From a virus: DNA of 47,197 bases. Positions 21,999 through 47,197 of the stretch are shown here, in pieces (position 1 is the first letter of the stretch; every line of letters begins with the position of its first letter). The notes under the pieces are model-generated. The model ran no database searches, was not told where the DNA came from, and saw nothing but the letters and a program-made list of their open reading frames with translations. Made by a program: the position numbers and the translations under genes. The stretch lies in IMG/VR virus record IMGVR_UViG_3300020404_001967, positions 1-47,197 of that record; one strand, given 5' to 3'.

Positions 21999-22914
21999 TA
22001 CATTTCGTGTAGTTGATTATGACATTATTTATTTGTCATATGACGAACCAAATGCTGAGCAAAACTATTCTGATTTATGTAGTAAAGTTCCTTGGGCTAA
22101 ACGTGTGCATGGAATAAAAGGTAGCGATAGCGCACACAAAGCTGCTGCTAATGAAAGTGATACAGAACGATTTATTACTATTGATGGTGACAACCGAATT
22201 ACTGATGATTTTTTGACACAAGTAATTGACTTTGACGAAAATGTAGATTTAAATAACAAAGTAATAAGTTGGACAGCTGAAAATATAATTAATAATCTGA
22301 GATATGGTAATGGTGGCATAAAGTGCTGGCCTAAGGATCATGTTTTAAGAATGAAAACACACGAAAATGCAGATCCTAATAATCCACATGCACAAGTAGA
22401 TTTTTGTTGGGATACTGAATATGTTCAAATGAATGGGACTTTTAGTAAGATATATAATAATGCTACACCACATCAGGCATGGCGTGCAGGTTTTAGAGAA
22501 GGTGTTAAAATGGCATTAGATAGAGGTATGCAAGTTACTCCAGAACAATTCAGTAAGAATCATTGGAAAAATTTACATAGACTCTATATTTGGCTAATGG
22601 TTGGTGCTGACATAGAACACGGACGTTGGGCAATATATGGTGCAAGAGAGGGACTATACAAAACTATGTTGACAGATTGGGACTTCGTCAATGTTAGAGA
22701 TTTTGATTGGCTAAATGAATATTGGGATAATAAAAAATTAGATGAAGAAGACATGTTTCTTGCTACTGAAGATTATGGCGATAAATTAATTAATGAACTA
22801 CTATTGCCTATTTCAGTTGAACCTTTAGATGCCAATCAAAGTATATTCTTTAAAACTGTTTATCAAAATCCAGACCGTGATAATAGTAAGCAATTTTTGG
22901 ATAGAGAAACTTAA
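21991..22914 (+). CDS. GT-A-like protein with DGD motif
   Basis: About 307 residues. I start at the ATG at 21991, which has GAGGT upstream, rather than the TTG one codon earlier. The N-terminal half (YDIIYLSYDEPNAEQNY, RVHGIKG, FITIDGDNRITDDF) matches the third domain of the protein starting at 27122. It contains D-G-D near residue 61, the likely metal/nucleotide-sugar site. A GNGGIKCWPKDHVL segment follows, matching GYGGVKLFPRELTL in that homologue. A transferase role is inferred from the fold-like pattern. No substrate is known. Its stop codon overlaps the start of the first radical SAM gene (TAATG). Confidence 0.55.
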   Translation: MANTFRVVDYDIIYLSYDEPNAEQNYSDLCSKVPWAKRVHGIKGSDSAHKAAANESDTERFITIDGDNRITDDFLTQVIDFDENVDLNNKVISWTAENIINNLRYGNGGIKCWPKDHVLRMKTHENADPNNPHAQVDFCWDTEYVQMNGTFSKIYNNATPHQAWRAGFREGVKMALDRGMQVTPEQFSKNHWKNLHRLYIWLMVGADIEHGRWAIYGAREGLYKTMLTDWDFVNVRDFDWLNEYWDNKKLDEEDMFLATEDYGDKLINELLLPISVEPLDANQSIFFKTVYQNPDRDNSKQFLDRET

Positions 22915-24287
22915 TGGAGCGCAGCGAAAGCGAAGAAATAAAACGCATAGATGAGATTACAAAAGATATTTCTCCTACGTTTTGTTTCGCTAAATGGTAT
23001 CATGCCAATATATATTTTCAGACAGGTGAAACACATAGTTGTTATCATCCTGCTCCCCATAAGATAGATACAGGACCATTATTAAAAAATCCTAGTGCGA
23101 TACACAATACAGCACAAAAGAAAAAAGAACGTGCTGCAATGATGCGTGGTGAGCAACCTGCTGGTTGTAATTATTGCTGGAAGATTGAAGCAATGGGCAA
23201 AGATTATGTTAGTGACAGAAAGCAACGTAATCAAACTATTTTCTTCAAACATAGACTTAAAGCAGTAAAAGAAGGTGGTGCAGAGTTTGATGTAAATCCA
23301 GAATACTTAGAAGTTAGTTTTGGTAATGAGTGTAACTTTCGTTGTGGATACTGTCATCCAAAAGCCAGCAGCAGATTTTATAATGAAATAAAATCACATG
23401 GTCCTTATGATATGGTTAAAAATCATAGATGTGACATCGATTGGTTTAATATATTTGAAGAAGATAATAATCCATATTTAGATGCATTTTGGCGTTGGTG
23501 GCCTGAGCTTAGTAAAGAACTACACATATTACGTATAACAGGTGGTGAGCCAACAATACAAAAAAGCACATACAAGTTGTTTGATATGCTTGATGCAGAT
23601 CCAAAGCCTGAACTAGAACTAAACTGTAATAGTAACTTAGGAGGCAAACCAAAACAGTTAGAGAAGTTTACAAATCGTGTAAATGATTTACTTTCGCAAA
23701 ATAAAATTAGACGTTTTAAAATGTTTACAAGTATTGACACATGGGGCAAACGTGCAGAATATATACGTGACGGATTAAACGTAGAAGTTTTTGAACGTAA
23801 CTTAGATTATTTTATGCGTAACTGTGAAGCACCAATGGTGTTAATGATAACATTTAATATTTTCAGTGTAACAACATTCCGCACATTACTTGAAAAAATA
23901 TTAGAATGGCGTAGGAAATATAATGACGTTGATACACATAGATGGCAAAGATTAGGATTTGATACACCGCATTTGAAAGAACCGTTGCAATATGATATCA
24001 ATATTCTACCTAAACATTATATGACTTATATGCATGATCATTTACAGTTCATAAAAGAAAATACAGATGATAATCGTAAAGATGCATTTAGCACAATAGA
24101 ATATGAAAAGTTCAGACGTGTTGTTGATTATATGGATACAACAGAATATACTTTAGATAAAGTAATACAAGGACGCAGAGATTTTCATAAATTTTTTGAA
24201 GAACAAGGGCGTAGAAGAAATGTAAACCACGAACAAGTTTTTCCTGAAATGTCAGACTTTTTCGAGCTGTGCAAAGAATACATCTAA
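22914..24287 (+). CDS. Radical SAM protein with N-terminal cysteine (twitch-like) region
   Basis: A 457-residue rSAM enzyme. C140-x3-C144-x2-C147 (NECNFRCGYCH) is the canonical SAM/4Fe-4S motif, followed by RITGGEPTIQ, the usual GGE SAM-binding motif. Before the core, separated cysteines and a C-N-Y-C pair (around residues 23-85) resemble an N-terminal twitch-type auxiliary cluster. Proteins of this layout are often labelled twitch-domain radical SAM proteins. The reaction is unknown. It is the last plus-strand gene of the glycosyltransferase block, separated from the other ten rSAM genes. Its last 36 nt are overlapped by the convergent acetyltransferase gene. Confidence 0.85.
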   Translation: MERSESEEIKRIDEITKDISPTFCFAKWYHANIYFQTGETHSCYHPAPHKIDTGPLLKNPSAIHNTAQKKKERAAMMRGEQPAGCNYCWKIEAMGKDYVSDRKQRNQTIFFKHRLKAVKEGGAEFDVNPEYLEVSFGNECNFRCGYCHPKASSRFYNEIKSHGPYDMVKNHRCDIDWFNIFEEDNNPYLDAFWRWWPELSKELHILRITGGEPTIQKSTYKLFDMLDADPKPELELNCNSNLGGKPKQLEKFTNRVNDLLSQNKIRRFKMFTSIDTWGKRAEYIRDGLNVEVFERNLDYFMRNCEAPMVLMITFNIFSVTTFRTLLEKILEWRRKYNDVDTHRWQRLGFDTPHLKEPLQYDINILPKHYMTYMHDHLQFIKENTDDNRKDAFSTIEYEKFRRVVDYMDTTEYTLDKVIQGRRDFHKFFEEQGRRRNVNHEQVFPEMSDFFELCKEYI

Positions 24288-24878: not shown

Positions 24879-24900
24879 TTTTTGATATATATTATATACT
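24872..24900 (+). promoter_or_regulatory. Sigma-70-like promoter for the desaturase
   Basis: TTGACA (24872-24877) and TATACT (24895-24900) are 17 bp apart. The -35 box contains the start codon of the divergent acetyltransferase gene. The -10 box ends only 9 nt before the desaturase ATG, and the GGAG at 24901-24904 may lie upstream of the transcription start, so the message may be near-leaderless. Confidence 0.7.
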
Positions 24901-24909
24901 GGAGTTATA

Positions 24910-25656
24910 ATGCATAATACATTGGTTCGAGCTACACAAATACTTAACCATATCTTATTAGTTATTGGTGTAAGTCTGATTATTTTTTATGATGTGCCAG
25001 CTGTATATTTGATATACAGTGTGCTAATCTATTGGTTTATTGGTGTCTTTGGAATCAATATAGGATACCATAGATTAATTAGTCATAGGAGTTTTACAAC
25101 ATATAAATGGTTAGAATACTTACTAGGACTTATAGGTTCAATAACAATGATTGGAAGTCCGTTAGCGTGGACTGCAATTCACAGACAACATCACGGACAT
25201 GCAGATACAGACAAAGATGTGCATAGCCCTTACAAACTTGGATGGTGGAGAGCGTGGTTTGGCTTTTGGAATATACAACATATTAATCCAAAATATATAA
25301 AGGATATACGCAAAAATCCTTATTACAAATTTACACACAAATATTATTTTTTTATTAATATTGCATATGTATCTGTGTTATTTTTAATTAATCCTCTATT
25401 AGTAATATTTGCATATGCTATACCTACAGTTTTAGTTTTACATAGCACAAGTGCAATTATTGTAATTGCGCACATACATGGATATAAAAATCATTCTATA
25501 GATGACGAAAGTCGTAATAGTTGGATTGCTAGTTTGATTACATTAGGAGAAGGTTGGCATAACAACCATCATGCAAATAGTAAAGCATGGAATAATCAAG
25601 AACGTTGGTGGGAATTAGATCCGCCTGCATGGATAATAAGATTAATTAAAATTTAG
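24910..25656 (+). CDS. Membrane fatty acid desaturase (acyl-lipid/acyl-CoA type)
   Basis: A 248-residue di-iron desaturase with all three histidine boxes: H54-x4-H59 (HRLISH), H91-x2-HH95 (HRQHH) and H217-x2-HH221 (HNNHH). There are four hydrophobic segments, the first two near residues 10-50. The family inserts a cis double bond, usually delta-9, into membrane acyl chains using O2 and an electron donor. The length is short but complete for the catalytic core. In marine phages such genes are auxiliary metabolic genes that probably alter host membrane lipids during infection. It has its own promoter. Its TAG stop overlaps the TAA stop of the convergent fibre gene. Confidence 0.9.
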   Translation: MHNTLVRATQILNHILLVIGVSLIIFYDVPAVYLIYSVLIYWFIGVFGINIGYHRLISHRSFTTYKWLEYLLGLIGSITMIGSPLAWTAIHRQHHGHADTDKDVHSPYKLGWWRAWFGFWNIQHINPKYIKDIRKNPYYKFTHKYYFFINIAYVSVLFLINPLLVIFAYAIPTVLVLHSTSAIIVIAHIHGYKNHSIDDESRNSWIASLITLGEGWHNNHHANSKAWNNQERWWELDPPAWIIRLIKI

Positions 25657-27047: not shown

Positions 27048-27066
27048 AGGAACTCCTTGTGTAAAG

Positions 27067-27074
27067 TATTTATC
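27067..27074 (-). promoter_or_regulatory. Late promoter motif GATAAATA, minus strand
   Basis: On the minus strand this octamer lies 19 nt upstream of the fibre ATG at 27047, with AAGGAG between. It shares a 74-nt gap with a divergent sigma-70-like promoter, so one gap seems to hold a late promoter leftwards and an early promoter rightwards. Confidence 0.65.
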
Positions 27075-27086
27075 AGAAATCTATTC

Positions 27087-27115
27087 TTGACAACATAGAT
27101 ACATTTTAGTATAAT
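27087..27115 (+). promoter_or_regulatory. Perfect sigma-70-like promoter of the 20-kb operon
   Basis: TTGACA (27087-27092), a 17-bp spacer and TATAAT (27110-27115). The next gene begins at 27122, about where transcription should start, so the message may be leaderless. All plus-strand genes to the window end follow with gaps of at most 30 nt or with overlaps. Confidence 0.85.
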
Positions 27116-27121
27116 TACAGT

Positions 27122-28447
27122 ATGTATGATATTTTTTATATTGGATCTAAATCTGACCAGCAATGGCAAAACTTCAAAGAAAATTTTCCTACAATAAAAT
27201 GTATGGATACTGTAGAACAGGCTACAACAAAAAGTTTGACAGAATGTTTTTGGATAGTGTATCCAGACACAGAAATTTCAGAAAACTTCTTATTTGACTT
27301 TGTTCCTGACGAATGGAGTAAGGATGTTGCACACGTATTTCTAAACGGTGAATCTTATGATGGTATTGCACTTTTGCCAAAAAACCATAATTATTCTGTA
27401 AAAGAAACTAGAAGTAGATTTTATGTATCTCATAAAAAAATAGATATTGTTGCTAGTAAACCTGCAAAATATCAAATATTCTATGCTGATACATATCAAG
27501 AATATTTGAATGCAATAAAACAAACACAATTTGATTTATTTTATATTGTTCCAAGCACAGTTGATATTCACCCTGATTTTACATTTGATCATTATTTTTC
27601 TCATCATAACATGTTTGATAGACGTATCAATCATATATTTTTAAATGGAGATTACCACGATGGAATAATGCTTTGTAGTAAGTTACATCCAATAAGTGAA
27701 AGAGAATATACGTTTAGATTTATTGCTGGCAAAAAAGAACACAACCAATTAGTAAGCACACCCAAACCATATGATGTTGTTTTTATAAGTTATCAAGAGC
27801 CAGATGCTGATAAAAACTTTGAAAATTTAAAGAAAAAAGCACCTAATGCAAAGCGTATACATGGTGTCAAAGGCATACATCAAGCACATATTGAGGCTGC
27901 AAAGTTATGTGATACTCCAATGGTTTGGATAGTCGACGGTGATGCAACAATAGTAGATGACTTTGAATTCAACTATCAAGTGCCTGCTTGGCAATATTCA
28001 CATGTGCATGTATGGAGAAGCAAAAATCCAGTGAATGGATTAGTATATGGTTATGGCGGAGTAAAGTTGTTTCCAAGAGAATTAACACTAAACATGGATA
28101 CAAGTAAGCCAGATATGACTACAAGTATAAGTGATAAATTTATTGCAGTAAAACATATTAGTAATGTTACAGGATTCAACACAGGAGAATTTGAAACATG
28201 GAAAAGTGCATTTAGAGAATGTTGCAAACTAAGTAGTAAAATAATTGATAGACAAAAAGATGGCGAAACAGATCAAAGACTTAAAATATGGTGTAGTAGA
28301 GGCAAAGATAAACCGTTTGGAGAATTTGCAATCAAAGGAGCTAAAGAAGGTGCATTATATGGTGCAAGAAATGCAACCAACCCACAAGCATTAAAACTTA
28401 TAAATGATTTCGAATGGCTCAAGGAACAGTTCAATGGAAACTTATAA
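27122..28447 (+). CDS. Triplicated GT-A-like protein with one intact DGD domain
   Basis: A 441-residue protein made of three related domains. Domain 1 (about 1-115) and domain 2 (about 116-217) keep the strand pattern (FWIVYPDTEISENF, FYIVPSTVDIHPDF) but have lost the acidic motif. Domain 3 (about 218-441) has YDVVFISYQEPDADKNF and WIVDGDATIVDDF, with D-G-D near 276. It matches the protein at 21991. I infer one active nucleotide-sugar transferase-like domain with two binding or scaffold copies. The start is at the expected transcription start of a consensus promoter with no ribosome site. The next in-frame Met, at about residue 28, would delete the first strand. Confidence 0.6.
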   Translation: MYDIFYIGSKSDQQWQNFKENFPTIKCMDTVEQATTKSLTECFWIVYPDTEISENFLFDFVPDEWSKDVAHVFLNGESYDGIALLPKNHNYSVKETRSRFYVSHKKIDIVASKPAKYQIFYADTYQEYLNAIKQTQFDLFYIVPSTVDIHPDFTFDHYFSHHNMFDRRINHIFLNGDYHDGIMLCSKLHPISEREYTFRFIAGKKEHNQLVSTPKPYDVVFISYQEPDADKNFENLKKKAPNAKRIHGVKGIHQAHIEAAKLCDTPMVWIVDGDATIVDDFEFNYQVPAWQYSHVHVWRSKNPVNGLVYGYGGVKLFPRELTLNMDTSKPDMTTSISDKFIAVKHISNVTGFNTGEFETWKSAFRECCKLSSKIIDRQKDGETDQRLKIWCSRGKDKPFGEFAIKGAKEGALYGARNATNPQALKLINDFEWLKEQFNGNL

Positions 28448-29480
28448 GATATTAGATAGATTTGAATTGCTATATCCTAGCGACACACGATTTGCGGATT
28501 TGCGTCGAGCTTATATAGATAGAGATTTAACAAGTATATTTAAAATATGTAATGCTGATGATGAATTAAGGAAAGCAATTATTGAAAAAAATATACACAG
28601 TATATTTAGATTGACAGAAGATACAAGAGTAATAGGAACAGTAGAAGATTTTCGTAAGGCAGTAGTAGAGCAAAATTTACACAGTATTTTTAGAATGTTA
28701 CCTCCTAAATTTGAAGATTTACGTAAAGCAGTAACAGAAGATAATTTACACAGTATATTTAGATTGTTGGATTTTGAAGATTTACGCAAAGTTATTCTTA
28801 ATGATAATCAATGGTCATTATATCCTATACTCAAAGAGTTTAATGACACTCAGTTTGTAGATGCGTTAAAATATATGTATATAGAAGAAATTGAATTTGA
28901 TGAGGACTGTCTAAGTCGAGGACAATTACAAAGTAAACTATGGCTAGTAGATGAATTAAAAAAAATAAGTGTAGATTTAGGTGTTGTATTTTTATGTGCT
29001 GGCTGGTATGGGACATTAGCTACAATGATTTTTGAAGCAGGAATAAGTGTTGAAAAGATCAGAAGTTTTGATATAGATATTAATACAGAAAAAATTGCTG
29101 AAATATTTAACAAGCCTTGGGTAATGAACGGATGGAAATTTAAACCAGTTGTCCAAGATATTCACTTGATTAACTTTGATGAGCATTCATATGTTGTGCA
29201 AAAAGACGGAGGAGACTTTGAAGTTTTGTGGGATATACCTGATACAATAATTAATACAAGTTGTGAACATATAAATAATTTTAATGAATGGTATAACAAA
29301 ATACCTGAAGGTAAACTAGTTGCCATGCAATGTAATGATTTTGAACAAATTGAAGAACATGTCAATACACACAAAGACTTAGAAAGTTTTGCAAATCAAA
29401 CTCCTCTTGAAACTGAATTATATAGTGGTGAGCTTGATTTAGGACAATACAAAAGGTTTATGAGAATTGGATATAAGTAA
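28434..29480 (+). CDS. DLR/HSIF-repeat protein fused to a methyltransferase-like domain
   Basis: About 348 residues. I prefer the ATG at 28434 because AAGGAA lies seven bases before it. An upstream ATG at 28404 is in frame but has no clear site. Residues about 20-135 contain five repeats of the form D-(L/F)-R-(K/R)-A-x5-N-(L/I)-H-S-I-F-R. The C-terminal half has VFLCAGWYGTL (SAM-loop-like), SFDIDINTEKIAEIFN (acidic strand end that would bind ribose) and DTIINTSCEHINNF, as in class I methyltransferases of marine phages. The substrate is unknown. It overlaps the previous gene by 14 nt and the next by 14 nt. Confidence 0.6.
   Translation: METYKILDRFELLYPSDTRFADLRRAYIDRDLTSIFKICNADDELRKAIIEKNIHSIFRLTEDTRVIGTVEDFRKAVVEQNLHSIFRMLPPKFEDLRKAVTEDNLHSIFRLLDFEDLRKVILNDNQWSLYPILKEFNDTQFVDALKYMYIEEIEFDEDCLSRGQLQSKLWLVDELKKISVDLGVVFLCAGWYGTLATMIFEAGISVEKIRSFDIDINTEKIAEIFNKPWVMNGWKFKPVVQDIHLINFDEHSYVVQKDGGDFEVLWDIPDTIINTSCEHINNFNEWYNKIPEGKLVAMQCNDFEQIEEHVNTHKDLESFANQTPLETELYSGELDLGQYKRFMRIGYK
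28494..28841 (+). repeat. Five tandem coding repeats (DLR...NLHSIFR)
   Basis: Five units of about 20-30 codons. The third and fourth are close at the DNA level: both contain AATTTACACAGTAT preceded by a GAAGATTT(T/A)CGTAA(G/A)GCAGTA block. This suggests recent duplication or slippage within the gene. The first and fifth units are more diverged. Confidence 0.8.
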
Positions 29481-29703
29481 ATTTACACCAAGGCAGTTAC
29501 AAGTTGAAAGTGCAAGAGCACTTAGCACAATTCAAGCTACAAATAATAATATTCACATGTTTAACAAAGAAGCACATCATAACAGTTGGAATTGGTATAT
29601 TGCTGTTATACATTGGTATATTGAGCAATATGGAGATTTGCCAAGCAAGGTAGGGCCAGGAAAGGATGTTAAGTTAGTTTATGATAACATTCAAAATAAT
29701 TGA
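29467..29703 (+). CDS. Small protein of unknown function, TTG start
   Basis: A 78-residue protein. The only start that keeps most of the frame is TTG at 29467, with GAGAA just upstream and a 14-nt overlap with the previous gene, a spacing repeated elsewhere in this operon. The first ATG lies at codon 31. It is aromatic-rich in the middle (HHNSWNWYIAVIHWYIEQYG, about 37-56) and helical in look, with no Cys. I do not recognise it. It does not look like a radical SAM substrate peptide, having no Cys-rich, repeated or Gly-Gly core. Function unknown. Confidence 0.55.
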   Translation: MDISKFTPRQLQVESARALSTIQATNNNIHMFNKEAHHNSWNWYIAVIHWYIEQYGDLPSKVGPGKDVKLVYDNIQNN

Positions 29704-30778
29704 TGAAAGACAGTATATTCTAAGTCCTACTTACAACAATCTCGATATAAATTTATTAATAGAGAATCATAGCACGTGGGATAGCTATGCAAAGGATGTT
29801 TTTAATTTTTGGTCATGCGCTGACAAAATTGAAACAACCACTTCTTGTAACAAAGGAGAAAAATATATTGTTCCTATGTGTTATATACACCAAGATGAAG
29901 CGTTGTATACAGCAAAACATTTTGTTGAAGTTGCAAAACAGTTTGTAGAAGATTATGCAGAAATGTTCAAATTTGCAACATTAGCAATAGTTGATCCTTT
30001 TGAAAGTTCACAACATTTTATAGATAGTGTAGATGAATTAAAAAAACATTTTGACATAGATATAATAGGTATCAATCCGAATAAAAGATATGCAGATGGT
30101 ATATACACTGATACAGGTATTCATAAGTTTATTGATCACGGTAACCCAATATCATTTACTGATAGAAAATTATATATAAATTTAAATAATGCTGCACATT
30201 ATCATAGATGTAAAATGTTAGATGCATTGATTGAAAATAATTTGCATTCTATAGGATATAACACATGTCATGATGTATACGGACAAGTTTTAGAATATAA
30301 AAAACATAATGAAACACGTATTGATAAAATTCAATGGGATGTTTTAGATTCGTTAAATAAAACGTCAGGGAAAAGAATTACGACAGTTCCATATCGAGCT
30401 TGCACCCAAAGTTTTTTATGGTTAGTTGTTGAAACCAATGTTGATTCAGATAATATGTTTTTTACAGAAAAAATATACAAACCAATTGCTTTAGGAATGC
30501 CTTTTATGGTGTTAGGTAATCCTGGCATGCTTGCTGATCTACAACGTAGAGGATATAAAACATTTAGTGAATTTTGGAATGAAGATTATGATAAAGATTT
30601 ACCGTTAGACGATAAGATTAAAATAATAATTGATAATTTAAAAACATTAACAAAACAAAACTTAAAAGAATTACGTGTAAATATGAAATCCTATTTACTG
30701 CATAACAGACAAGTGTATAATGAAGAAAGATCTAAAAACGAATTGCGTAAAAATCTAAAGGATCATTTAAATGTATAG
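29681..30778 (+). CDS. Putative glycosyltransferase, GT10/exostosin-like C-terminus
   Basis: A 365-residue protein. The C-terminal segment FFTEKIYKPIALGMPFMVLG, then GMLADLQRRGYKTFSEFWNE (about 267-310), matches the donor-binding motif of alpha-1,3-fucosyltransferase-like and exostosin-like GT-B enzymes: F-x-T-E-K, K-P-I, P-F, then G(F/Y)-x-T-F. The N-terminal half is divergent, with no signal peptide. A retaining or inverting sugar transfer is plausible. The sugar is not known. The start overlaps the preceding small gene by 23 nt, and the end overlaps the next rSAM gene by 8 nt. Confidence 0.55.
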   Translation: MITFKIIDERQYILSPTYNNLDINLLIENHSTWDSYAKDVFNFWSCADKIETTTSCNKGEKYIVPMCYIHQDEALYTAKHFVEVAKQFVEDYAEMFKFATLAIVDPFESSQHFIDSVDELKKHFDIDIIGINPNKRYADGIYTDTGIHKFIDHGNPISFTDRKLYINLNNAAHYHRCKMLDALIENNLHSIGYNTCHDVYGQVLEYKKHNETRIDKIQWDVLDSLNKTSGKRITTVPYRACTQSFLWLVVETNVDSDNMFFTEKIYKPIALGMPFMVLGNPGMLADLQRRGYKTFSEFWNEDYDKDLPLDDKIKIIIDNLKTLTKQNLKELRVNMKSYLLHNRQVYNEERSKNELRKNLKDHLNV

Positions 30779-39092: not shown

Positions 39093-40218
39093 ATGCGTTT
39101 TACCATTTCATCATATGGCAATACGTCCAGACGGAGGCATACGTCCTTGCTGTTATTTCAGAGAGGAGACAGTGCCTAGCGATCTTAACACAGCACACGA
39201 AGATCCTTTCAATCATCCTTTCATGTTAGACATAAGAGAGCGTATGCTTAATGATGAATACATTGAAGGTTGTAGTAAATGCTATGATGACGAAGAAGCC
39301 AGTGGTAAAAGTATGCGGACTGACATGAATTCACCTTTTACTACATTTGGATTGCCAAAAGAAAATAGAGGAGAGATACCAAAACTTACTAATTTGGATT
39401 TAGCTTTCAGTAATGTGTGCAATAACAAGTGTAGAATGTGTGGTCCTGAACTAAGCACTCAGTGGTATACTGATGCAAAGAAAATGAACTATGGATTCGA
39501 GCAACGTGGCGTATTAGCACGTAATAGTATTGTAGAAGATTATGATTTACAAGATCTTAGATTTATAAAACTACTTGGTGGTGAGCCACTTATGGAGCAG
39601 AAGAAGTTTATTAAGTTATTAAGCAAGTGCGATTTATCTAAGTTGACATTATTATTAGTTACAAATACAACACATAGACCAAATGAGCAATTGACTGATC
39701 TATTTAAACAATGTAAAAAAATGACTATAACTTTTAGTATAGATAGTCATGGTGAAATGAACGATTTTTTACGTAAGGGTAGTGATTGGAAACAAGTTGA
39801 AGAAAATGTAAAATGGTTCAAAGAAACTTTTGACGGATATCCTATAGACATGAATGTGCATAGTATAGCAAGTATATATAACATCAATCAAATAGAAAAT
39901 TTGATTATGTGGTGCTTACAAAATAAACTTTATCACGATTATGTTGTGGTTGATGGTCCTAATTGGATTATGCCAAGACATATTCCGGATCCAGTAAAGC
40001 AGGAGCTTATACCTGAATTACAGAAACGTGCTGATAGTTACGGACGTAATGGGAAAATATTTAAATTGTTAATTCACGAACTAGAACAACTAGGTGATTT
40101 TGGCATGTTTATACGCAACGATATAAGATTAAATAGTATTAGAAATGAAGATTGGAAAAAATTAAATCCTTGGTTATGGCGTAAAGTTAAACCATATATA
40201 ACAAAAGATATACTTTAG
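39079..40218 (+). CDS. Radical SAM protein, compact N-terminal twitch-like form
   Basis: A 379-residue enzyme. C6 and IRPDGGIRPCC (about 16-26), then C-S-K-C near 60, make up the N-terminal twitch-like region. C114-x3-C118-x2-C121 (VCNNKCRMCGP) is the catalytic motif and KLLGGEPLME the GGE motif. The CRMCGP stretch is shared with the next two genes. It overlaps the previous gene by 14 nt and ends 30 nt before the next, where a TATAAT box lies. A peptide-, glycan- or small-molecule-modifying role is possible. The sequence gives no substrate. Confidence 0.85.
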   Translation: MWKHRCVLPFHHMAIRPDGGIRPCCYFREETVPSDLNTAHEDPFNHPFMLDIRERMLNDEYIEGCSKCYDDEEASGKSMRTDMNSPFTTFGLPKENRGEIPKLTNLDLAFSNVCNNKCRMCGPELSTQWYTDAKKMNYGFEQRGVLARNSIVEDYDLQDLRFIKLLGGEPLMEQKKFIKLLSKCDLSKLTLLLVTNTTHRPNEQLTDLFKQCKKMTITFSIDSHGEMNDFLRKGSDWKQVEENVKWFKETFDGYPIDMNVHSIASIYNINQIENLIMWCLQNKLYHDYVVVDGPNWIMPRHIPDPVKQELIPELQKRADSYGRNGKIFKLLIHELEQLGDFGMFIRNDIRLNSIRNEDWKKLNPWLWRKVKPYITKDIL

Positions 40219-40248: not shown

Positions 40249-41619
40249 ATGAGCGACACACTTTGTCCAATTCCTTGGATGAGTCAAAGTCTTAGAGCAA
40301 ATGGAGATATAAGAGTTTGCTGTCAAACTCAGCATGGTCCTACCGGAGGTATCATGAGAAATTCTGCTGGCGAAGTATATAATGCAAGAACTGCCAATCT
40401 CAAAGATACTAGAAACAGTGATATAGCGAAAGATATACGCAAAGCTATGATGAAAGGCGAATGGCATCCGGACTGCGTAAGATGTCAAACTGAGTCTGAG
40501 GCTGGTATGCGTAGCAGACAAATATATGAAAATGATATTTGGATACTCAGTGGTTTACATAATTGGGATAATTTATTATCGCACACACAAGATGACGGCA
40601 CTATAGATGTAGATGCTATAGATTGTAGTTTTTATGATGTTAGATTTGGTAATTTATGTAATTTAAAATGTAGAATGTGTGGACCTACTGATAGTAACAT
40701 GTGGTATGAAGACCAAGTTAAATTATGGGGTCCTAGTTACAAAGATAGTCATGGTAAAGTTAAACTTGTTCAAAACCAAAAAGGAAAATATGTTCCTGAA
40801 GTCAATGTATATGATTGGCATGAAAGCAATCATTATTGGGAACAAATGGATTCTAACATAAGTGAAATACGCAAACTGTATATAGTTGGCGGTGAACCAT
40901 TAATGATTGATAGGCATTATGAATTTTTACAAAAGTGTGTTGATGAAGGAGTAGCAAATAAAATAACTGTTGAATATAATAGTAATCTTACTAATATTCC
41001 ACAACGTGCTTGGGACGTATGGAAACATTTTAAGCGTATACAAATAGGTGCAAGTATTGATGGAGTAGGAGATTTACAATACTATATGAGGCCTCCTAGC
41101 CGTTTTAGTAAATGTTATGAAAATCTACTTAAATTGAGTGAAGCAGAAGGAAACTTTAAGGTGTGGATTGCTGCTACTATAAATGTATTCAACGTATTAC
41201 ATTTTCCTGAATTTATGGAATGGATCATACTAAACAAAATACCAAAAGTAAATGACGATAATGTGCGGCCTATAATTACTCCTCATCCTTTGCATGGACC
41301 AAAATTTTATAACGTAAGGATGCTGCCTAAATTTGCAAAAGATGCTGTAAAAGAAAAATATGAACAATACAAACCAAAATTAGAAAAACTTATCGATGAA
41401 AGTGATTTCACAGATGATAGAAAAAAAGCAAGTAAGCGTGAAGCAAATAAATTACTTAATCAATATGTTGATTATATGTATGCAAAAGACTTCAGTGAAC
41501 ATTTACCACAGTTTTGGGAAGCAACAAGACGATTAGATAAAATTAGAGGACATAGCATAGAAGAATCTATTCCAGAATTGTATGAATTAATAAAGGATAC
41601 AGAACCTAAAGATGTCTAG
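40249..41619 (+). CDS. Radical SAM protein, N-terminal twitch-like, tandem copy A
   Basis: A 456-residue enzyme. The N-terminus CPIPWMSQSLRANGDIRVCC and the later HPDCVRC pair form the twitch-like region. C137-x3-C141-x2-C144 (LCNLKCRMCGP) is the rSAM motif and YIVGGEPLMI the GGE motif. It is the closest relative of the following gene, with identical DNA over 29 nt at the catalytic cysteines, so the two come from a tandem duplication. A possible -10 box and a GGAG site precede the ATG. It overlaps the next gene by 8 nt. The reaction is unknown. Confidence 0.87.
   Translation: MSDTLCPIPWMSQSLRANGDIRVCCQTQHGPTGGIMRNSAGEVYNARTANLKDTRNSDIAKDIRKAMMKGEWHPDCVRCQTESEAGMRSRQIYENDIWILSGLHNWDNLLSHTQDDGTIDVDAIDCSFYDVRFGNLCNLKCRMCGPTDSNMWYEDQVKLWGPSYKDSHGKVKLVQNQKGKYVPEVNVYDWHESNHYWEQMDSNISEIRKLYIVGGEPLMIDRHYEFLQKCVDEGVANKITVEYNSNLTNIPQRAWDVWKHFKRIQIGASIDGVGDLQYYMRPPSRFSKCYENLLKLSEAEGNFKVWIAATINVFNVLHFPEFMEWIILNKIPKVNDDNVRPIITPHPLHGPKFYNVRMLPKFAKDAVKEKYEQYKPKLEKLIDESDFTDDRKKASKREANKLLNQYVDYMYAKDFSEHLPQFWEATRRLDKIRGHSIEESIPELYELIKDTEPKDV
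40657..40685 (+). repeat. 29-nt exact repeat, copy in rSAM gene A
   Basis: This stretch encodes the CNLKCRMCGP catalytic motif and is identical to 42026-42054 in the next gene. The identity includes third codon positions, which points to recent duplication or gene conversion rather than protein-level conservation alone. Confidence 0.85.
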
Positions 41620-42961
41620 CACATTCTGCCCTATGCCGTGGAATAGTATAAACATACGTAATAACGGCGATATACGCATTTGTTGTAATGCAAATAGCTA
41701 TACTGAAAATAAAGGTATAGTTAGAATGGATGATGGCACGCCATATAATATTGGTAAACACGAAATAACAGATGCTCGTAATGCTGAATTATTAAAAGAA
41801 GTTCGCTTGAAAATGCTCAATGATGAGTGGCATCCAGAATGTGAACGTTGTAGACAAGAAGAAATAAATGGTATCAAAAGCAGACGTGAACACGAAGTTT
41901 TAGAATGGGGAGAATACAGCGGCGATTTTGATATTGAGGCAGCTCAGGCAGTTACTGATGAAGATGGATCTATTGATACAAATGCTCAACCTTTAGAATT
42001 TTTTGATATACGTTATGGTAACTTTTGTAATTTAAAATGTAGAATGTGTGGACCAACAGAAAGTCATACCTGGTTTAACGATTATGTAAAACTACATGGA
42101 AGGAATCAATTCAACGATACTCACGGAACAGTAGTTTTAGAAAAAAATAAAAAAGGCAGATGGGAAACTGATAGTTATAATTGGTTCAAACAAAGTAATT
42201 GGTTTTGGAATCAATTTGAAAAGCACACAACAAATACCAAGCGCATGTATATAGTTGGTGGCGAGCCATTGATAATCGATGAACACTTAGAACTTTTAGA
42301 AAGATTAGTTGCAAATGGAAATAGTCATAACATTGAAATAGAATACAATAGTAATCTTACAAATGTTACAAAAAATATTGTAAACGCATGGGAAAAATTT
42401 AAACAAATACGTATTGGAGCAAGTATTGATGGTTTGGGCGATGTTTTTAACTATCAAAGAGCACCTGCAAATTGGAATAAAGTTTATCAAAATATGTTGA
42501 CTTTAGAAAACAATCCTAATATAAACCTTAAAGGATGGTTTACGTATACTGTTACACCTTTAAATTTATTTCATTTGCCAGAATTTATGCAATGGAAATT
42601 AGAACACAGCGGCCTTAGTAAATTCAATCCAATCACTACTGCAAAGCCTATTGTAACTTATCACATGTGTCATGCTCCTAAGCACTACAATGTTAAAATA
42701 CTCCCATACGAATATAAACAACAAGTTTGTGATACTTTTGACGAATACAAAAAATGGATTGTAACCACAGAACATGCAGACAAAGTTAAAAATAATTTTG
42801 TTGACATACTGAATAAAGTAGAACGCTTTATGAACAGTGAAGATTACAGTGAACACTTGCCTACATTTATAGATACAACACTTAGATTAGATGAAATACG
42901 CAAACAAAACATTTTAAATATAGTTCCGCAATTTGAGGAGATGTTTCATGCACATCACTAG
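41612..42961 (+). CDS. Radical SAM protein, N-terminal twitch-like, tandem copy B
   Basis: A 449-residue enzyme paired with the gene upstream. FCPMPWNSINIRNNGDIRICC and HPECERC make the N-terminal cysteine region. C139-x3-C143-x2-C146 (FCNLKCRMCGP) and YIVGGEPLII form the core, followed by IRIGASIDGLGD, which matches IQIGASIDGVGD in copy A. Copies A and B differ mainly between the N-terminal region and the core (about 95-130) and in the C-terminal third, where substrate specificity could lie. It overlaps its neighbours by 8 and 14 nt. Confidence 0.87.
   Translation: MSSTFCPMPWNSINIRNNGDIRICCNANSYTENKGIVRMDDGTPYNIGKHEITDARNAELLKEVRLKMLNDEWHPECERCRQEEINGIKSRREHEVLEWGEYSGDFDIEAAQAVTDEDGSIDTNAQPLEFFDIRYGNFCNLKCRMCGPTESHTWFNDYVKLHGRNQFNDTHGTVVLEKNKKGRWETDSYNWFKQSNWFWNQFEKHTTNTKRMYIVGGEPLIIDEHLELLERLVANGNSHNIEIEYNSNLTNVTKNIVNAWEKFKQIRIGASIDGLGDVFNYQRAPANWNKVYQNMLTLENNPNINLKGWFTYTVTPLNLFHLPEFMQWKLEHSGLSKFNPITTAKPIVTYHMCHAPKHYNVKILPYEYKQQVCDTFDEYKKWIVTTEHADKVKNNFVDILNKVERFMNSEDYSEHLPTFIDTTLRLDEIRKQNILNIVPQFEEMFHAHH
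42026..42054 (+). repeat. 29-nt exact repeat, copy in rSAM gene B
   Basis: Identical to 40657-40685 and in the same codon frame, covering the catalytic cysteines. The two copies are 1,369 bp apart, which is the unit length of the tandem duplication at this point. Confidence 0.85.
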
Positions 42962-43841
42962 TGAAAATTTAGATTGTGCTATAATAACATTGTTTGTGCA
43001 TAATGTTTGTAACTATGCTTGTAGTTATTGTAATGATTATCATAGAGATGGAAGCCATAGATGGCCAACAGATTGGGAACCATACATTGATCTTATTACA
43101 AATATGAAAAAGAAAAACAAATATTTGTATGTTGAAGTTCTTGGAGGAGAACCAACAGTGTGGCCTAAATTTCAAGACTTTGTTGATACAATAAGTTCTG
43201 ACACTGTTTTTGTAGAATTCAGCACCAATGCAAGTAGAACTATACGATACTGGGAAAAATTTAGAACACATAGAGCTTTCTGTTTTTTAAGTTGGCACTA
43301 TGAATTTGCAGATGATGATCATTTTTATGAAGTTGCAAAAATAATGCAGCATAAAGCAAGTGTTAGTATACCTTTAATGATTGTTCCTGATAATTATCAA
43401 CGGGCCAAAGCATTATATGAAAGATTAAAAGATCTAAATGTTGAAATAACGCCTAAGTTCACAAGAACTAATATTGGAGGAACAGATTATTTTCAGTATA
43501 CAGATGAACAACGTGAATGGATACAAAATAATGCATGGCACAAAATGAAACCGTTTGGTATAGATTGGAAAATACCTCAAACTTTACATTTTGATGGAGA
43601 GCCTATGAAGTTTATGAAAGTTTTAGATAAAGGTTTACATAAGTTTGATGGATATACTTGCACTGCGGGTATAAGAAGACTTATGGTTGAGCCAGATGGT
43701 AATATTAAGAGATGCACAAAAAATGTAGGAGGTAGTATAGGAAATATACTTACTGGTTATACATTGCCAGATGATCCTATATTATGTGATTATAGAGCAT
43801 GTCCTTGTAAATTAGATGCGGTGGTAGAAAAATGGATTTAA
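42948..43841 (+). CDS. Radical SAM protein with SPASM-like C-terminus
   Basis: About 297 residues from the ATG at 42948, which has GAGGAG seven bases upstream. A TTG five codons earlier lies in front of that site and is less likely. C21-x3-C25-x2-C28 (VCNYACSYCND) and EVLGGEPTVW are the core. The C-terminus has YTCTAGIRRLMVEPDGNIKRC and then CDYRACPC, close to the SPASM pattern that holds auxiliary 4Fe-4S clusters in peptide- and protein-modifying enzymes. It overlaps the previous gene by 14 nt and the third PP-loop gene by 10 nt. Confidence 0.87.
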   Translation: MHITSENLDCAIITLFVHNVCNYACSYCNDYHRDGSHRWPTDWEPYIDLITNMKKKNKYLYVEVLGGEPTVWPKFQDFVDTISSDTVFVEFSTNASRTIRYWEKFRTHRAFCFLSWHYEFADDDHFYEVAKIMQHKASVSIPLMIVPDNYQRAKALYERLKDLNVEITPKFTRTNIGGTDYFQYTDEQREWIQNNAWHKMKPFGIDWKIPQTLHFDGEPMKFMKVLDKGLHKFDGYTCTAGIRRLMVEPDGNIKRCTKNVGGSIGNILTGYTLPDDPILCDYRACPCKLDAVVEKWI

Positions 43842-44515
43842 GTAAAAGTATAGGAACAGATAATGAATTTGTTTGTGTTAAATTAAGCGGTGGTGCTGAT
43901 AGTGCTATAATTTATTATGCAGTATGTGATGCAGTAAAAGATACAAATACAAAAATTATTGTAATTACATTAGATACAGATTTAAAAGATCAGTATATTG
44001 CTGGTGCAAAACGTATAATAAAAATAGTTAAAGATCTTACTGGAGTTGAACCTTATGAACATATTACAAACACAGTTGAACATAGTTTAGAAAATTATAA
44101 TAATGGTCAGCATCATTTATTAGAACAAGTTTGGGAAAAATATGGAAAATACATTCCAGTATATACTGGACTTACAATAAATCCTCCTCATGAAGATATG
44201 GTTGAATTTTTTGAAAATAATGCAGAAAGATTAGGTATAGATTTACAACATGCACTAGCTCATATTCATAGTAGAGACCAAGGAAGAGATATCAAATTGC
44301 CATACGGTGAAAATCCTGGAAGGTTGTTCGGAAAGACTGATAAGAAAGGGACTGCTGCTGCCTATAAACATTATGATATGATGGAAAAATTATATCCATA
44401 TACATTTAGTTGTGAATCGGCACCATATGAACTTGACGAAAATGATATGCCAATTCATTGTGGACACTGTTTTTTCTGTTTAGAGCGTTGGTGGGGGTTT
44501 GATAGATTAACATGA
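43832..44515 (+). CDS. QueC-like PP-loop ATPase 3, short form
   Basis: A 227-residue protein, shorter at the N-terminus than its two paralogues. S19-GGAD-S24 is the PP-loop. FSCESAP and C210-x2-C213-x2-C216 (CGHCFFCLERWWGF) form the QueC-like zinc site. The centre has VYTGLTINPPHEDM, which matches YSGTTMNPPEDF in paralogue 1. It therefore shares a family-specific loop absent from ordinary QueC. It sits between an rSAM gene (10-nt overlap) and a PLP-enzyme gene (4-nt overlap). Carboxylate or carbonyl activation by adenylation is the family chemistry. The substrate is unknown. Confidence 0.75.
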   Translation: MDLSKSIGTDNEFVCVKLSGGADSAIIYYAVCDAVKDTNTKIIVITLDTDLKDQYIAGAKRIIKIVKDLTGVEPYEHITNTVEHSLENYNNGQHHLLEQVWEKYGKYIPVYTGLTINPPHEDMVEFFENNAERLGIDLQHALAHIHSRDQGRDIKLPYGENPGRLFGKTDKKGTAAAYKHYDMMEKLYPYTFSCESAPYELDENDMPIHCGHCFFCLERWWGFDRLT

Positions 44516-45423
44516 ATTATGAAGATTTAACTTTTGACATGCTAGGCACAAAACGCCAACGTCCAATGTATCTAAGCAAATTTACAAAGTTTAGACAAAA
44601 ATTAAAAATGAAAGATTATCCATTAGATCCACATGAATACACAACATATTTTATTGAGCAAATGGACAAATGGATAAATGCGCACAATGCTATTTCTTAT
44701 ATAGGGCTAGATACGTTTGAACGCAAAGATGCAATATTAGGAACCACACATCAGTTGGATGAATTACATAGTCTTCATGGAAAAAATATTTGCACATTTA
44801 AAGGCGAATACAAATATCATAGAAGATTAACGGATTTTAATGTTAAACAAATAGAGCACTATAGTCAAATAGCAAAAGGCGATGTCTTTGTTGTAAGTTA
44901 TCCTAGTTGTATTACAACAGGTGCTATAGAAGATTTTGGCAAGTTGTTAGACCACTGTTATCATCTACATGTTCCTGTGCATATTGACGGAGCTTGGTTT
45001 GGACAATGTAGAAATGTTGAGCTTGCTGTATACCATCCTGCTATTGAAAGTGTAAGTGTAAGTTTGAGTAAAGCACTAGGAATGGGTAGTCAGCGCATAG
45101 GCATACGCTACACTAGAGAACGTATAAACGGCCCAATTAGCATTATGAATGACTTTGCCTATGCTAATGTAAGTGATATGTGGTTAGGTGTTGAAGCAAT
45201 GAAACATTTTGGTGTTGATTATTGGTGGGCAAACTATAGTGATTTGTATAAAAAAGTATGTAAAGATTTTGATTTGCGTGAATCAAACAGTATACATGTA
45301 GCCTGGAAAGATGGTGATCAATTTGGGATACGCACGCCTTTGAGAATGTTAATTGAAGGCATATATGACGAGCGCGGAACAGATAAAGGATTGAATAAAA
45401 TAGAAAGAGAAGAACGTGTATAA
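44512..45423 (+). CDS. PLP-dependent fold-type I enzyme (aminotransferase/decarboxylase-like)
   Basis: A 303-residue protein. VPVHIDGAWFG places D159 where fold-type I enzymes hold the PLP pyridine nitrogen. SVSLSKALGMGSQRIG supplies K187 as the Schiff-base lysine, followed by the usual Gly-rich loop. The length is short for the family: the N-terminal arm and the C-terminal small domain are reduced. Transamination, decarboxylation or a lyase reaction are all possible. In this operon it could add or expose an amine on the intermediate handled by the rSAM and PP-loop enzymes. It starts by an ATGA overlap. Confidence 0.75.
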   Translation: MNYEDLTFDMLGTKRQRPMYLSKFTKFRQKLKMKDYPLDPHEYTTYFIEQMDKWINAHNAISYIGLDTFERKDAILGTTHQLDELHSLHGKNICTFKGEYKYHRRLTDFNVKQIEHYSQIAKGDVFVVSYPSCITTGAIEDFGKLLDHCYHLHVPVHIDGAWFGQCRNVELAVYHPAIESVSVSLSKALGMGSQRIGIRYTRERINGPISIMNDFAYANVSDMWLGVEAMKHFGVDYWWANYSDLYKKVCKDFDLRESNSIHVAWKDGDQFGIRTPLRMLIEGIYDERGTDKGLNKIEREERV

Positions 45424-46105
45424 TTTTGGTTCACATAAAATAGATATAGATTTAGAATATCATAAAAAACAGTTTGATAATATTATTAGCCAATCTAAAG
45501 CTAAAATTACAGGAACAAAAGGTCATAATTTATTTTATCCTGTATCAAAAGATGATAAATCTTACCTACAAAACTATATGAATGAACTTACCGGCGTTTA
45601 TAATGATTGGAATTTTGATTATTTTCAAAGTGGTGAACCTGCTGGATTACATACAGATTATGATACAGTTCCTTGGGACGATGAAACTGAATGTCATGTA
45701 GTTGTTGGTTGTATTATTCCTTTAGAATGGAACTGCAAACAACCATATACTGTAAACTATGATAAAGTAAGTGACACACCTAGGAAAATGATGTATCGAA
45801 AAGGTGAAATGCGTTACAAAGACACTGACGAAATATTTGAGTATAGAACAGAATGGAAGCATAACGAAGAATCTTTGAAATATAATCATATTGATTGTGC
45901 ATATGCAAAAGAATATGTTGATTTAGACATTCATAGTGTTTATGAATGGAAAATAAATACACTTATGCTATTTGATACAGCAAGATGGCACAGTAGTAGT
46001 TGGTTCTTAAGCGCCAACAACATTCCTGATGTTAGCACAGAAAATAAAAGGTCAATAATAGGATTTGGATCTATAGATGTTCAACGCAATCAACCACACA
46101 CGTAA
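45416..46105 (+). CDS. 2OG-Fe(II) dioxygenase-like protein, GTG start
   Basis: A 229-residue protein. H79-T-D81 (GLHTDYDT), H192 (ARWHSSSWF) and R212 (NKRSIIGFG) give the H-x-D...H...R set that binds Fe(II) and 2-oxoglutarate on a double-stranded beta-helix. These enzymes hydroxylate or desaturate amino acids, nucleobases or small molecules with O2. The GTG start is supported by a purine-rich AGAGAAG stretch and an 8-nt overlap with the PLP gene. No ATG is close by. The target is unknown. It overlaps the next rSAM gene by 29 nt. Confidence 0.75.
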   Translation: MYNFGSHKIDIDLEYHKKQFDNIISQSKAKITGTKGHNLFYPVSKDDKSYLQNYMNELTGVYNDWNFDYFQSGEPAGLHTDYDTVPWDDETECHVVVGCIIPLEWNCKQPYTVNYDKVSDTPRKMMYRKGEMRYKDTDEIFEYRTEWKHNEESLKYNHIDCAYAKEYVDLDIHSVYEWKINTLMLFDTARWHSSSWFLSANNIPDVSTENKRSIIGFGSIDVQRNQPHT

Positions 46106-47197
46106 AGAAGAATTTTCTATATTTTGGGATCTTGGTAGACGTTGCACTTATGATTGCACATATTGTAGTCCGCATCACCATAATAAATTTTCACCTATAA
46201 TTAGTTTTAAAAAATTAGCTGCAACAATAGATGGTGTTGTTGATTATGCAAATTTATTGAATTTATACAGGACGGAACCTGTGACAACGGATGTGGCTTT
46301 CACAGGAGGAGAGCCTACAATACATCCTGATTTTTTTAAATTTATAAAATATATCAAACAAAAATATCCGCATGTAACTACAAATCTTACAACTAATGGA
46401 TGTTACTCTAACAAAAAATGTCAAGAAATTATAGACAATGTTAGCAATGCATGTATAAGTTACCATCCAGAAGCAACACAAAAAGAAAAAGATTTAGTTA
46501 TTTCTAATATTAAATTAATGTATGATCAAGAATATAAATTTAGAATTAATTTAATGTTTCATAAAGATTACTTTGATCACTGTATTGAACTTGCAGAATG
46601 GTTTAAAGAATTAGGTATACGTTATACAGCACGGCCTATTGGCGACAGTAATGACAAGGAAGATATTAGAAGAGGTTATGCACATGTGTATAGTGAAAAG
46701 CAATTACAATATTTTAAAAATCAATGGGAAAAGAAAGAAAAACCAAAAACCCATGTAATGAATATGGCTACAAAAAACACAAGCATAGCAACAATAGGAC
46801 GCCCTTGTTGTAACGGAAAGTGTTTAAAAATTAAGACAGGAGATTCTTGGGGAAGAGGTTTTAGAGTTCCATCTACTAATTACAAAGGATGGAGTTGTAT
46901 GGTAAATTGGAATTTTTTATATGTGAATAGCGAATTAGATTTAATTTACACACATCAAACATGTATGGTAAATCTAGACGGACAAGTAGGTCCTTTAGGA
47001 AAGGCTACAGAGTTTGATAAAATTAATGCAGATTTGCAAAAAAAATTACGCAGCGGCAAAATGCCTGTGATACGATGTCCTAAGACTCATTGTGGTTGCG
47101 GATTGTGTGCGCCTAAGGCTCTGTATGATGATGATGCAACAGAAATATTTGAAAGTCATACAAAATATTTAGAACCAGTATTGCAAAAAGAAACTAA
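46077..47197 (+). CDS. Radical SAM protein, 3' end outside window
   Basis: The frame from the ATG at 46077 stays open for 373 codons to the window edge, so only the extreme C-terminus is missing. A TAG lies directly before the ATG, fixing the earliest start. C23-x3-C27-x2-C30 (GRRCTYDCTYCSPHH) and FTGGEPTIH form the core. GRPCC, then a C-terminal CPKTHCGCGLCAPK (cysteines at about 342-351), match the gene at 37935, its paralogue. Whether the paralogues act on the same substrate is open. It overlaps the oxygenase gene by 29 nt. Confidence 0.87.
   Translation, partial: MFNAINHTRKEEFSIFWDLGRRCTYDCTYCSPHHHNKFSPIISFKKLAATIDGVVDYANLLNLYRTEPVTTDVAFTGGEPTIHPDFFKFIKYIKQKYPHVTTNLTTNGCYSNKKCQEIIDNVSNACISYHPEATQKEKDLVISNIKLMYDQEYKFRINLMFHKDYFDHCIELAEWFKELGIRYTARPIGDSNDKEDIRRGYAHVYSEKQLQYFKNQWEKKEKPKTHVMNMATKNTSIATIGRPCCNGKCLKIKTGDSWGRGFRVPSTNYKGWSCMVNWNFLYVNSELDLIYTHQTCMVNLDGQVGPLGKATEFDKINADLQKKLRSGKMPVIRCPKTHCGCGLCAPKALYDDDATEIFESHTKYLEPVLQKET

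Follow-up and report, generated by a model that had tools for sequence, protein, structure and literature searches.

A modular island of radical SAM enzymes in jumbo phages, possibly serving the tailoring of surface glycans

What could a phage achieve with eleven radical SAM (rSAM) enzymes encoded in about 24 kb of its genome? This question is raised by a viral contig of 47,197 nucleotides (IMG/VR record IMGVR_UViG_3300020404_001967), the whole of which is referred to here as the window. The first-pass annotation proposed for it a dedicated multi-step modification pathway and left the substrate open; the evidence discussed below points towards surface glycans. Genes are named by their start positions in the window, and all those given with both ends lie on the plus strand.

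The cysteine motif C-x3-C-x2-C is found in eleven ORFs (22914, 30771, 31847, 33634, 35875, 37935, 39079, 40249, 41612, 42948 and 46077). Among the 37 ORFs of at least 150 aa in six frames, the motif is restricted to these 11, and composition-preserving shuffled controls contained 0.045 motifs per 4,014 aa. The radical SAM domain PF04055 is matched by every one of them, 8 above the Pfam whole-protein cut-off and three (22914, 31847 and 40249) just under it, so that motif and domain together place the whole set (11/11) in the superfamily, as had been claimed. The catalytic cysteines are kept almost throughout the homologues, 922 of 924 complete ORFs retaining them (family by family 446/447, 37/37, 265/265 for the family of 31847, 105/106 and 69/69). 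Ten of the genes form a single run, in which neighbours mostly overlap by 4–44 nt; 22914 is set apart from them by approximately 6.5 kb including two minus-strand genes. The count of 11 is a minimum, since the contig stops within the eleventh gene (46077).

Six of these enzymes belong to the twitch domain-containing radical SAM proteins (N_Twi_rSAM, NCBIfam NF033640; family cut-off 170 bits). The cut-off is passed, with 193–418 bits, by N_Twi rSAMs 1 to 6: the outlying 22914..24287 (300 bits), 33634..35046 (418 bits, a core gene of the island described below), 35875..37128 (193 bits), 39079..40218 (256 bits), 40249..41619 (370 bits) and 41612..42961 (358 bits). The remaining five score far under it and are not members. 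The six are exactly those that had been grouped by extra cysteines before the core. In a comparison that took in phage, cultured-phage and bacterial members, the auxiliary-cluster cysteines N-terminal to the core are invariant (C12, C93, C96) or nearly so (C30/C31), and PF13186 (SPASM) is located N-terminally. These cysteines, CX3CX2C and GGE are common to the family and the window's six; the latter, however, are divergent paralogues (~19–33% identity to 33634) lying in one locus and mixed with three other rSAM families. We know of no reaction assigned to any N_Twi enzyme.

Family B is represented by 30771..31850 (PF04055, 30.3 bits), also a core gene, and by a second copy, 31847..32884 (24.3 bits, under the cut-off). 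Family C consists of 42948..43841 (39.5 bits), whose Cys-rich C-terminus has invariant cysteines; C-terminal cysteines are conserved in both family B enzymes as well. Two further rSAMs end in CGCGLC, 37935..39092 (41.8 bits) and 46077..47197 (44.2 bits, truncated by the contig end). They are 39% identical, and 12 cysteines, the C-terminal ones included, are invariant among 18 homologues. Despite these conserved cysteines, Pfam detects no C-terminal SPASM domain in any of the five enzymes. The three layouts described earlier hold for the six N_Twi members, the CGCGLC pair and the three Cys-rich ends, but the SPASM-like character of those ends is not recovered by Pfam.

The rSAM genes are accompanied by other putative enzymes. 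A class-I-methyltransferase-like protein with N-terminal repeats (28404..29480; motif reading, no Pfam or PDB match) belongs to the core. A fatty-acid desaturase-like protein (24910..25656; PF00487, E 8e-19) has a cluster recurring in 16 related loci, and an SGNH-like hydrolase of esterase/acyltransferase type (32874..33620; sequence reading, no Pfam match) recurs in 24. The PLP aminotransferase-like protein of fold type I (44512..45423) matches a PDB profile of histidinol-phosphate aminotransferases (E 4e-5), and the lysine of its SLSK motif is conserved. A putative 2OG-Fe(II) oxygenase (45416..46105) was read from its HxD...H pattern, with no Pfam match. The recurrent first gene of the island (27122..28447) encodes a GT-A-like protein with a DGD motif, D-x-D being conserved in 22 homologues; its glycosyltransferase label is tentative because no significant Pfam or PDB match was obtained. 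Another possible glycosyltransferase, of GT10-like reading, is encoded by 29681..30778 (no HMM match). Such an assignment was considered for 27122, 20606 and 29681 and is unsupported by HMM or PDB search.

Three PP-loop ATPases of QueC fold are encoded in the same run. For the first (35030..35878; SGGADS ... SCE ... CGYCFFC), the AF2 model (pLDDT 88.9) has QueC 2pg3 as its best Foldseek match (E 1e-8). The second (37121..37945, alternative GTG start at 37046) was assigned from alignments A2 and A4, and the third (43832..44515) from alignment A4, with PF06508 (QueC) at 17.3 bits, under the cut-off. The QueC fold, SGGxDS and a C-terminal CxxCxxC are present in the PP-loops of the window. SGGxDS and a zinc-type Cys cluster are shared with the QueC family and with the N-acetyl sugar amidotransferases WbpG and LpNASAT; the window enzymes differ from the latter in matching no sugar-amidotransferase model and in a C-terminal Cys layout that is QueC/Cap9-like.

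The same block recurs in related genomes with variable content: in 122 related loci longer than 20 kb the median number of rSAMs is 9, and as many as 22 are encoded in a whole record. The rSAM genes of these relatives are clustered, not scattered, and travel jointly in hundreds of contigs. A near-constant core comprises the methyltransferase-like gene, a gene for a 78-aa protein, rSAM 30771 (orthologue at 60% identity or more in 43/43 loci having 6 kb downstream) and N_Twi 33634 (median orthologue identity 85%; at least 45% in 41/43 loci). All else is mixed and matched, including rSAMs, QueC-fold PP-loops, PLP and 2OG enzymes and many accessory enzymes. Above Pfam cut-offs, related islands contain UDP-sugar dehydrogenase, CMP-sugar-type cytidylyltransferase, NAD-epimerase, carbamoyltransferase and APS-kinase; sulfotransferase matches are sub-threshold, and genes for Asp/Asn hydroxylase (PF05118) and for TauD oxygenases are recurrent. 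A T4-type portal (PF07230) is encoded in 15 of 16 large island-bearing records. The block is a conserved yet mosaic island of T4-portal jumbo phages. Since gene content outside the small core is swapped among islands, a tailoring repertoire fits better than one linear pathway; of the earlier proposal, a dedicated co-directional multi-enzyme phage block stands and a single fixed pathway does not.

At its left edge, the window encodes a large structural protein of the virion (43..10833; PHROG 10938, E 4e-113), which marks the island as a neighbour of tail genes and is followed by a tail collar or tail-fibre type protein (11462..13615; PF07484 Collar, E 2e-11). The nearest cultured relatives of the former, at ~28% identity, are the jumbo myophages Atu_ph07, Phosso and PA5oct. 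A pelagimyophage identity was considered and rejected on these grounds.

Outside the island, N_Twi relatives number hundreds in ocean-virus contigs and occur almost nowhere among sampled bacterial genomes. The family cut-off is passed in 3 of 398 Pseudomonadota genomes, one being a phage-bearing MAG. An origin as host-derived AMGs from the MED685 MAG was rejected: N_Twi is present in 0/150 of its relatives, and therefore its N_Twi contigs are read as phage. Four bacterial chromosomes carry N_Twi. In one, a single ORF joins it to Wzt, the ATPase of the ABC exporter for O-antigen (PF00005 + PF14524 Wzt_C + SPASM + Radical_SAM) within the locus rmlC-rmlD-wzm-wzt-N_Twi(x4 in all)-TylF-WbsX. In the vicinity of the second are genes for a GT2-like protein, an epimerase-like protein and a possible GT-B (no Pfam match); in the third, N_Twi forms a fusion with an FkbM methyltransferase and has GT2-like genes alongside. 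This and the fourth locus combine fused or adjacent FkbM methyltransferase and GT2-like genes with peptide-type genes. Vibrio phage K566, which is in culture, encodes five N_Twi enzymes, and two GT8 genes (over the Pfam cut-off) and two GT-B-like genes are interspersed among theirs; INPHARED contained no relatives of the CGCGLC rSAM, the PLP gene or the 78-aa protein. A polysaccharide-locus context of N_Twi is thus found outside this phage, in few independent cases. Unlike the O-antigen/ABC-exporter loci in which bacterial N_Twi genes are located, the phage island has neither an exporter nor a recognisable complete sugar-nucleotide pathway, so its substrate would have to be host-made glycans.

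On this basis, the block could be a hypervariable island of the jumbo-phage lineage, adjoining tail-fibre genes, that tailors surface glycans, a reading whose chances we consider evenly balanced. The data directly establish the gene families, their conservation, the operon-like gene order, the pattern of core and cassettes and the polysaccharide surroundings of N_Twi relatives; substrate, reactions and biological role we infer. The N_Twi and other rSAMs would apply 5'-deoxyadenosyl radical chemistry to sugars of a surface polysaccharide; epimerisation, dehydrogenation, deoxygenation or C–C bond editing are candidate reactions. The QueC-fold PP-loops could use ATP to activate a carboxylate or acetamido group of a sugar, giving an amide, amidine or nitrile, with WbpG in O-antigen synthesis as the model. 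Further decorations could come from the PLP, 2OG, SGNH, sulfo-, carbamoyl- and nucleotidyl-transferase genes. The core would make or anchor a common step; diversification of the glycan product would fall to the exchanged cassettes. The likely benefit would be an altered LPS/O-chain of the infected cell, or an altered virion glycan, through which adsorption, superinfection or recognition could be controlled.

Glycan tailoring is favoured because of the Wzt fusion in the rml/wzm locus, the sugar-related neighbours of the second and third bacterial N_Twi genes, the interleaving with GT8 genes in K566, the sugar-nucleotide and transferase Pfam matches of related islands, the match of the PP-loop model to QueC, whose family (PF06508) includes WbpG (PMC13329287, PMC10607449), and the high cassette turnover around a constant core. 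Against it, no glycosyltransferase family scores above its cut-off within the window, the Wzt fusion is known from one genome, and the most conserved small gene encodes a folded protein not evidently connected with glycans. SPASM/twitch rSAMs characterised so far have mostly peptide substrates, acting in RiPP and sulfatase maturation. This brings in the main rival, which we consider rather unlikely, namely that the rSAM, 2OG, PP-loop and PLP enzymes modify a host protein or a phage structural protein such as the adjoining tail fibres. The SPASM-type auxiliary cluster of N_Twi would suit such a role, as would the location of the island next to tail-fibre genes and the recurrent TauD oxygenases, and the 2OG and Asp/Asn-hydroxylase genes suit protein targets equally. 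At one bacterial N_Twi locus (L283), genes of kinds usual in peptide systems (PqqD, HprK-like and NTP_transf_5) are present as well. In CBASS and Qat, moreover, QueC-family enzymes attach a nucleobase to the N-terminus of proteins (PMC11996544, PMC13279940). The clearest bacterial contexts are nevertheless polysaccharide loci, variation among the enzyme sets is far greater than in any candidate protein target, and neither a hypervariable precursor nor a core peptide with repeats turned up. Nor was a short RiPP-type precursor combining a conserved leader with a variable core seen: the one small gene observed to recur is that of the 78-aa protein, whose uniform length, conservation and fold do not fit this description.

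This gene (29467..29703, TTG start), missed in the first-pass annotation, lies downstream of the 28404 homologue in 80/80 loci of a small-protein scan and overlaps both neighbours (by 14 nt upstream and 8 nt downstream). It is present in a single copy per island in 178 loci (the window and 177 others), all with at least one rSAM, and in 19/19 rSAM-rich records; in loci L143 and L147 it is relocated beside a different rSAM. The protein, designated 'PEP', could therefore be seen as a scaffold, carrier or substrate-like partner of the rSAMs, one invariant protein alongside many swapped modifying enzymes, which we regard as quite improbable. Its length is nearly always 73–79 aa and its sequence is conserved; the AF2 model is a helical bundle (pLDDT 88.5) lacking a variable core, and Pfam, PHROG, PDB and fold searches gave no significant match. 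Diverged copies (~43–51% identity) are located in a ClpX/IF-3/S21/ClpS-like operon away from rSAM islands, one in a phage with an rSAM island elsewhere and two in others with a single rSAM each; they weaken the notion of an obligate rSAM substrate, which the 178/178 co-occurrence had suggested. There is a similarly small chance that the island works as a modular factory for radical chemistry, with the helical protein carrying or scaffolding the core rSAMs and the rSAM/PP-loop/PLP/2OG cassettes varying the product between phages. To our knowledge, such peptide-scaffolded biosynthetic logic has not been described in viruses. A small-molecule, cofactor or nucleobase pathway, leading for example to a deazapurine-like DNA base or a signalling molecule, is very unlikely. 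Neighbouring QueE-like and QueC-like genes resemble preQ0 synthesis in principle, and there are weak matches to PHROG 2076 and 1550. The canonical QueC substrate motifs YxQxHxxE, VPxRN and YPDC (PMC13329287) are, however, absent from the PP-loop consensus (A4), no protein of the window reaches a QueE (equivalog) or QueC cut-off, and up to 22 divergent rSAMs far exceed the need of a base pathway; queuosine/preQ0 synthesis was rejected accordingly.

The first-pass annotation called more than a few rSAMs rare among phage auxiliary genes. High numbers in T4-like marine phages have precedents: papers of 2017 and 2020 mention rSAM-rich examples, with no function assigned (PMC5332604, PMC7029224). 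The 183-kb T4-like genome TARA_ERS488813_N000010 carries 12 rSAM genes (Nishimura et al. 2017, PMC5332604) and resembles the phages of this island in being uncultured, marine and provided with about a dozen rSAMs. These were interpreted, alongside an A-type carrier gene, in terms of Fe-S metabolism, and neither island anatomy nor substrate was given. Fe-S assembly as the main theme is not supported here, as an A-type carrier gene occurs in only 3 of 16 rSAM-rich records. The hypervariable host-recognition cluster of pelagimyophages contains tail fibres, LPS-related genes and rSAM cassettes (PMC7029224); there rSAMs are an occasional addition, whereas in this island they are the main content. 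What is new is the division into core and cassettes, the connection with polysaccharides, the 78-aa protein and the cultured model K566. If N_Twi enzymes edit surface sugars through radical chemistry, they would offer sugar-modifying enzymes from a source not yet exploited, and large phages would possess a new route for altering cell or virion recognition. The core/cassette layout shows which genes merit testing first, and phage K566 (255 kb, GenBank) makes the substrate question testable in culture.

The C-x3-C-x2-C motif occurs in 11 of the 37 ORFs of at least 150 aa found in all six frames of the window and is absent from the other 26, the chance expectation being 0.045 motifs per 4,014 aa (shuffles of the same residues). 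The 11 radical SAM (rSAM) ORFs of the first-pass annotation are all present at their positions, and an HMM check matched every one with PF04055, three slightly below the curated cut-off. The six described there as carrying extra cysteines before the core are exactly those exceeding the cut-off of NF033640 (N_Twi_rSAM, hereafter N_Twi). The CGCGLC pair (genes 37935 and 46077) shows 39% identity with an invariant CGCGLC end; genes 30771 and 31847 represent one further rSAM family (B), and 42948 a separate one (C). Genes run in a single direction from 27122 onward, with overlaps of 4–44 nt at all junctions but two, and the last rSAM gene is cut by the contig end.

A high rSAM count is not new, since Nishimura et al. 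(2017) described 12 rSAM genes in a T4-like marine genome, which they discussed in terms of Fe-S metabolism (PMC5332604), and rSAM cassettes were noted in pelagimyophage host-recognition islands (PMC7029224). No functional study of these enzymes was found in the literature searched. The present analysis adds the core/cassette structure, a small core protein, the link to polysaccharides and a cultured model.

Clustering and family-HMM searches covered the ORFs of the window and of 237 loci, 238 sequences in total; counts refer to loci, not independent phages, as some loci overlap on one contig or stem from near-identical contigs. Loci longer than 20 kb (n = 122) contain a median of 9 and a maximum of 15 rSAMs, with up to 22 per whole record. 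Loss of the catalytic cysteines in close homologues, named in the first-pass annotation as evidence against a dedicated modification pathway, is almost absent: by family, the motif is kept in 446/447 (N_Twi), 37/37 (NTwi2), 265/265 (B), 105/106 (C) and 69/69 (CGCGLC) complete distinct homologues.

The rSAM-rich island is composed of a constant core and swapped cassettes. In 80 loci located via the small protein alone, a homologue of the methyltransferase-like gene 28404 is always present (80/80). Forty-three of these extend 6 kb downstream; all 43 have rSAM 30771 at ≥60% identity and 41 have N_Twi 33634 at ≥45% (median 85%), while the remaining island genes are all patchy or distant. Across 155 loci, the variable genes of the window have orthologues in 26 different combinations. 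The methyltransferase-like protein (28404–29480) bears N-terminal LRKAVxExNLHSIFRL repeats, whose number differs between islands. A tail-fibre-like gene (25653–27047, minus strand) immediately precedes the island start and recurs in that position in about 20 related loci. Seven islands encode an amidinotransferase-like protein without a Pfam match at the threshold used (e.g., L046:16483–17538). ORFs that by sequence reading resemble MTA/SAH nucleosidase (L241:4366–4923, minus strand; L246:8452–9168; L248:7144–7863) could remove 5'-deoxyadenosine, the rSAM by-product.

The small core protein (29467–29703, plus strand; 78 aa, TTG start) was overlooked in the first-pass annotation. It is conserved and occurs once per island in 178 loci (the window and 177 others), each with at least one rSAM, and is present in 19/19 rSAM-rich records tested. 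As a rule, its ORF shares 14 nt with the gene upstream and about 8 nt with the one downstream. AlphaFold2 predicts a confident helical bundle (pLDDT 88.5); neither the fold search (no significant match) nor sequence-family searches yielded a relative. It was initially read as an rSAM substrate, a reading set back by diverged copies (~43–51% identical) that a targeted scan detected in L238, L246 and L248, in an operon which by eye appears to encode ClpX, IF-3, ribosomal protein S21, Hsp20 and ClpS. One of these phages has an rSAM island elsewhere in its genome and the two others carry a single rSAM. Because the diverged copies sit outside rSAM islands, the protein is a core partner rather than a demonstrated substrate.

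As for the substrate of the enzymes, several contexts point to glycans. The cultured 255-kb Vibrio phage K566 (OZ196521.1) has five N_Twi genes interleaved with two GT8 genes, both above the Pfam cut-off, and two putative GT-B genes (L285:17986–26773); its neighbourhood also includes an annotated PagP-like gene and genes for NAD salvage. UDP-sugar dehydrogenase, cytidylyltransferase, epimerase, carbamoyltransferase and APS kinase exceed Pfam cut-offs in other islands, where sulfotransferase matches are weaker. The window's three PP-loop proteins form one family, in which canonical QueC motifs are absent; the model of one (35030) has the QueC fold, and PMC13329287 places the O-antigen amidotransferase WbpG in the QueC family as well.

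In bacteria N_Twi is rare, exceeding the cut-off in 3/398 sampled Pseudomonadota genomes; one of these is a MAG whose contig was read as phage because N_Twi is found in 0/150 of its relatives. Contexts were read in the two remaining genomes and two from an order-level search. G250 has an O-antigen-type exporter locus in the order rmlC-rmlD-wzm, a Wzt/N_Twi fusion, three more N_Twi, TylF and WbsX; the fusion is a single ORF (L274:8582–11143, minus strand) with ABC_tran, Wzt_C, SPASM and Radical_SAM domains. In G285, N_Twi has a possible GT-B without a Pfam match in its vicinity, along with genes that read as GT2 and as NAD-epimerase. An FkbM methyltransferase is fused to N_Twi in G601 (L283:6988–13592) and adjacent in G864 (L284), with GT2-like genes near both. 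The former locus also includes PqqD, HprK-like and NTP_transf_5 neighbours and is a mixed peptide/glycan context.

Together, the bacterial contexts, K566, the island sugar genes and the PP-loop evidence favour glycan tailoring, to which we give about an even chance. The Wzt fusion rests on one genome, a real limit, and no glycosyltransferase of the window exceeds any family cut-off. SPASM/twitch enzymes are best known for action on peptides. Protein N-termini are modified by QueC-family enzymes in anti-phage systems (PMC11996544, PMC13279940). Given these limits and precedents, protein modification is the main rival to glycan tailoring.

The first structural gene of the window, a 47-kb IMG/VR record, is nearest to those of the jumbo myophages Atu_ph07, Phosso and PA5oct (~28% identity), and a T4-type portal occurs in 15/16 large island-bearing records. 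Relatives in viral contigs number 119 for N_Twi 33634 and more than 500 for the CGCGLC family; of the 50,697 records of cultured or deposited phages, just two from Vibrio and one marine fragment matched (~21–24% identity). Apparent phage contigs are binned into the GTDB MAGs Gammaproteobacteria MED685 (NZGL01000008.1; L236/L241/L242) and Neisseriaceae CE-Jul18-66 (CANEUJ010000032.1; L237); the rSAM genes on these contigs are not to be attributed to the bacteria.
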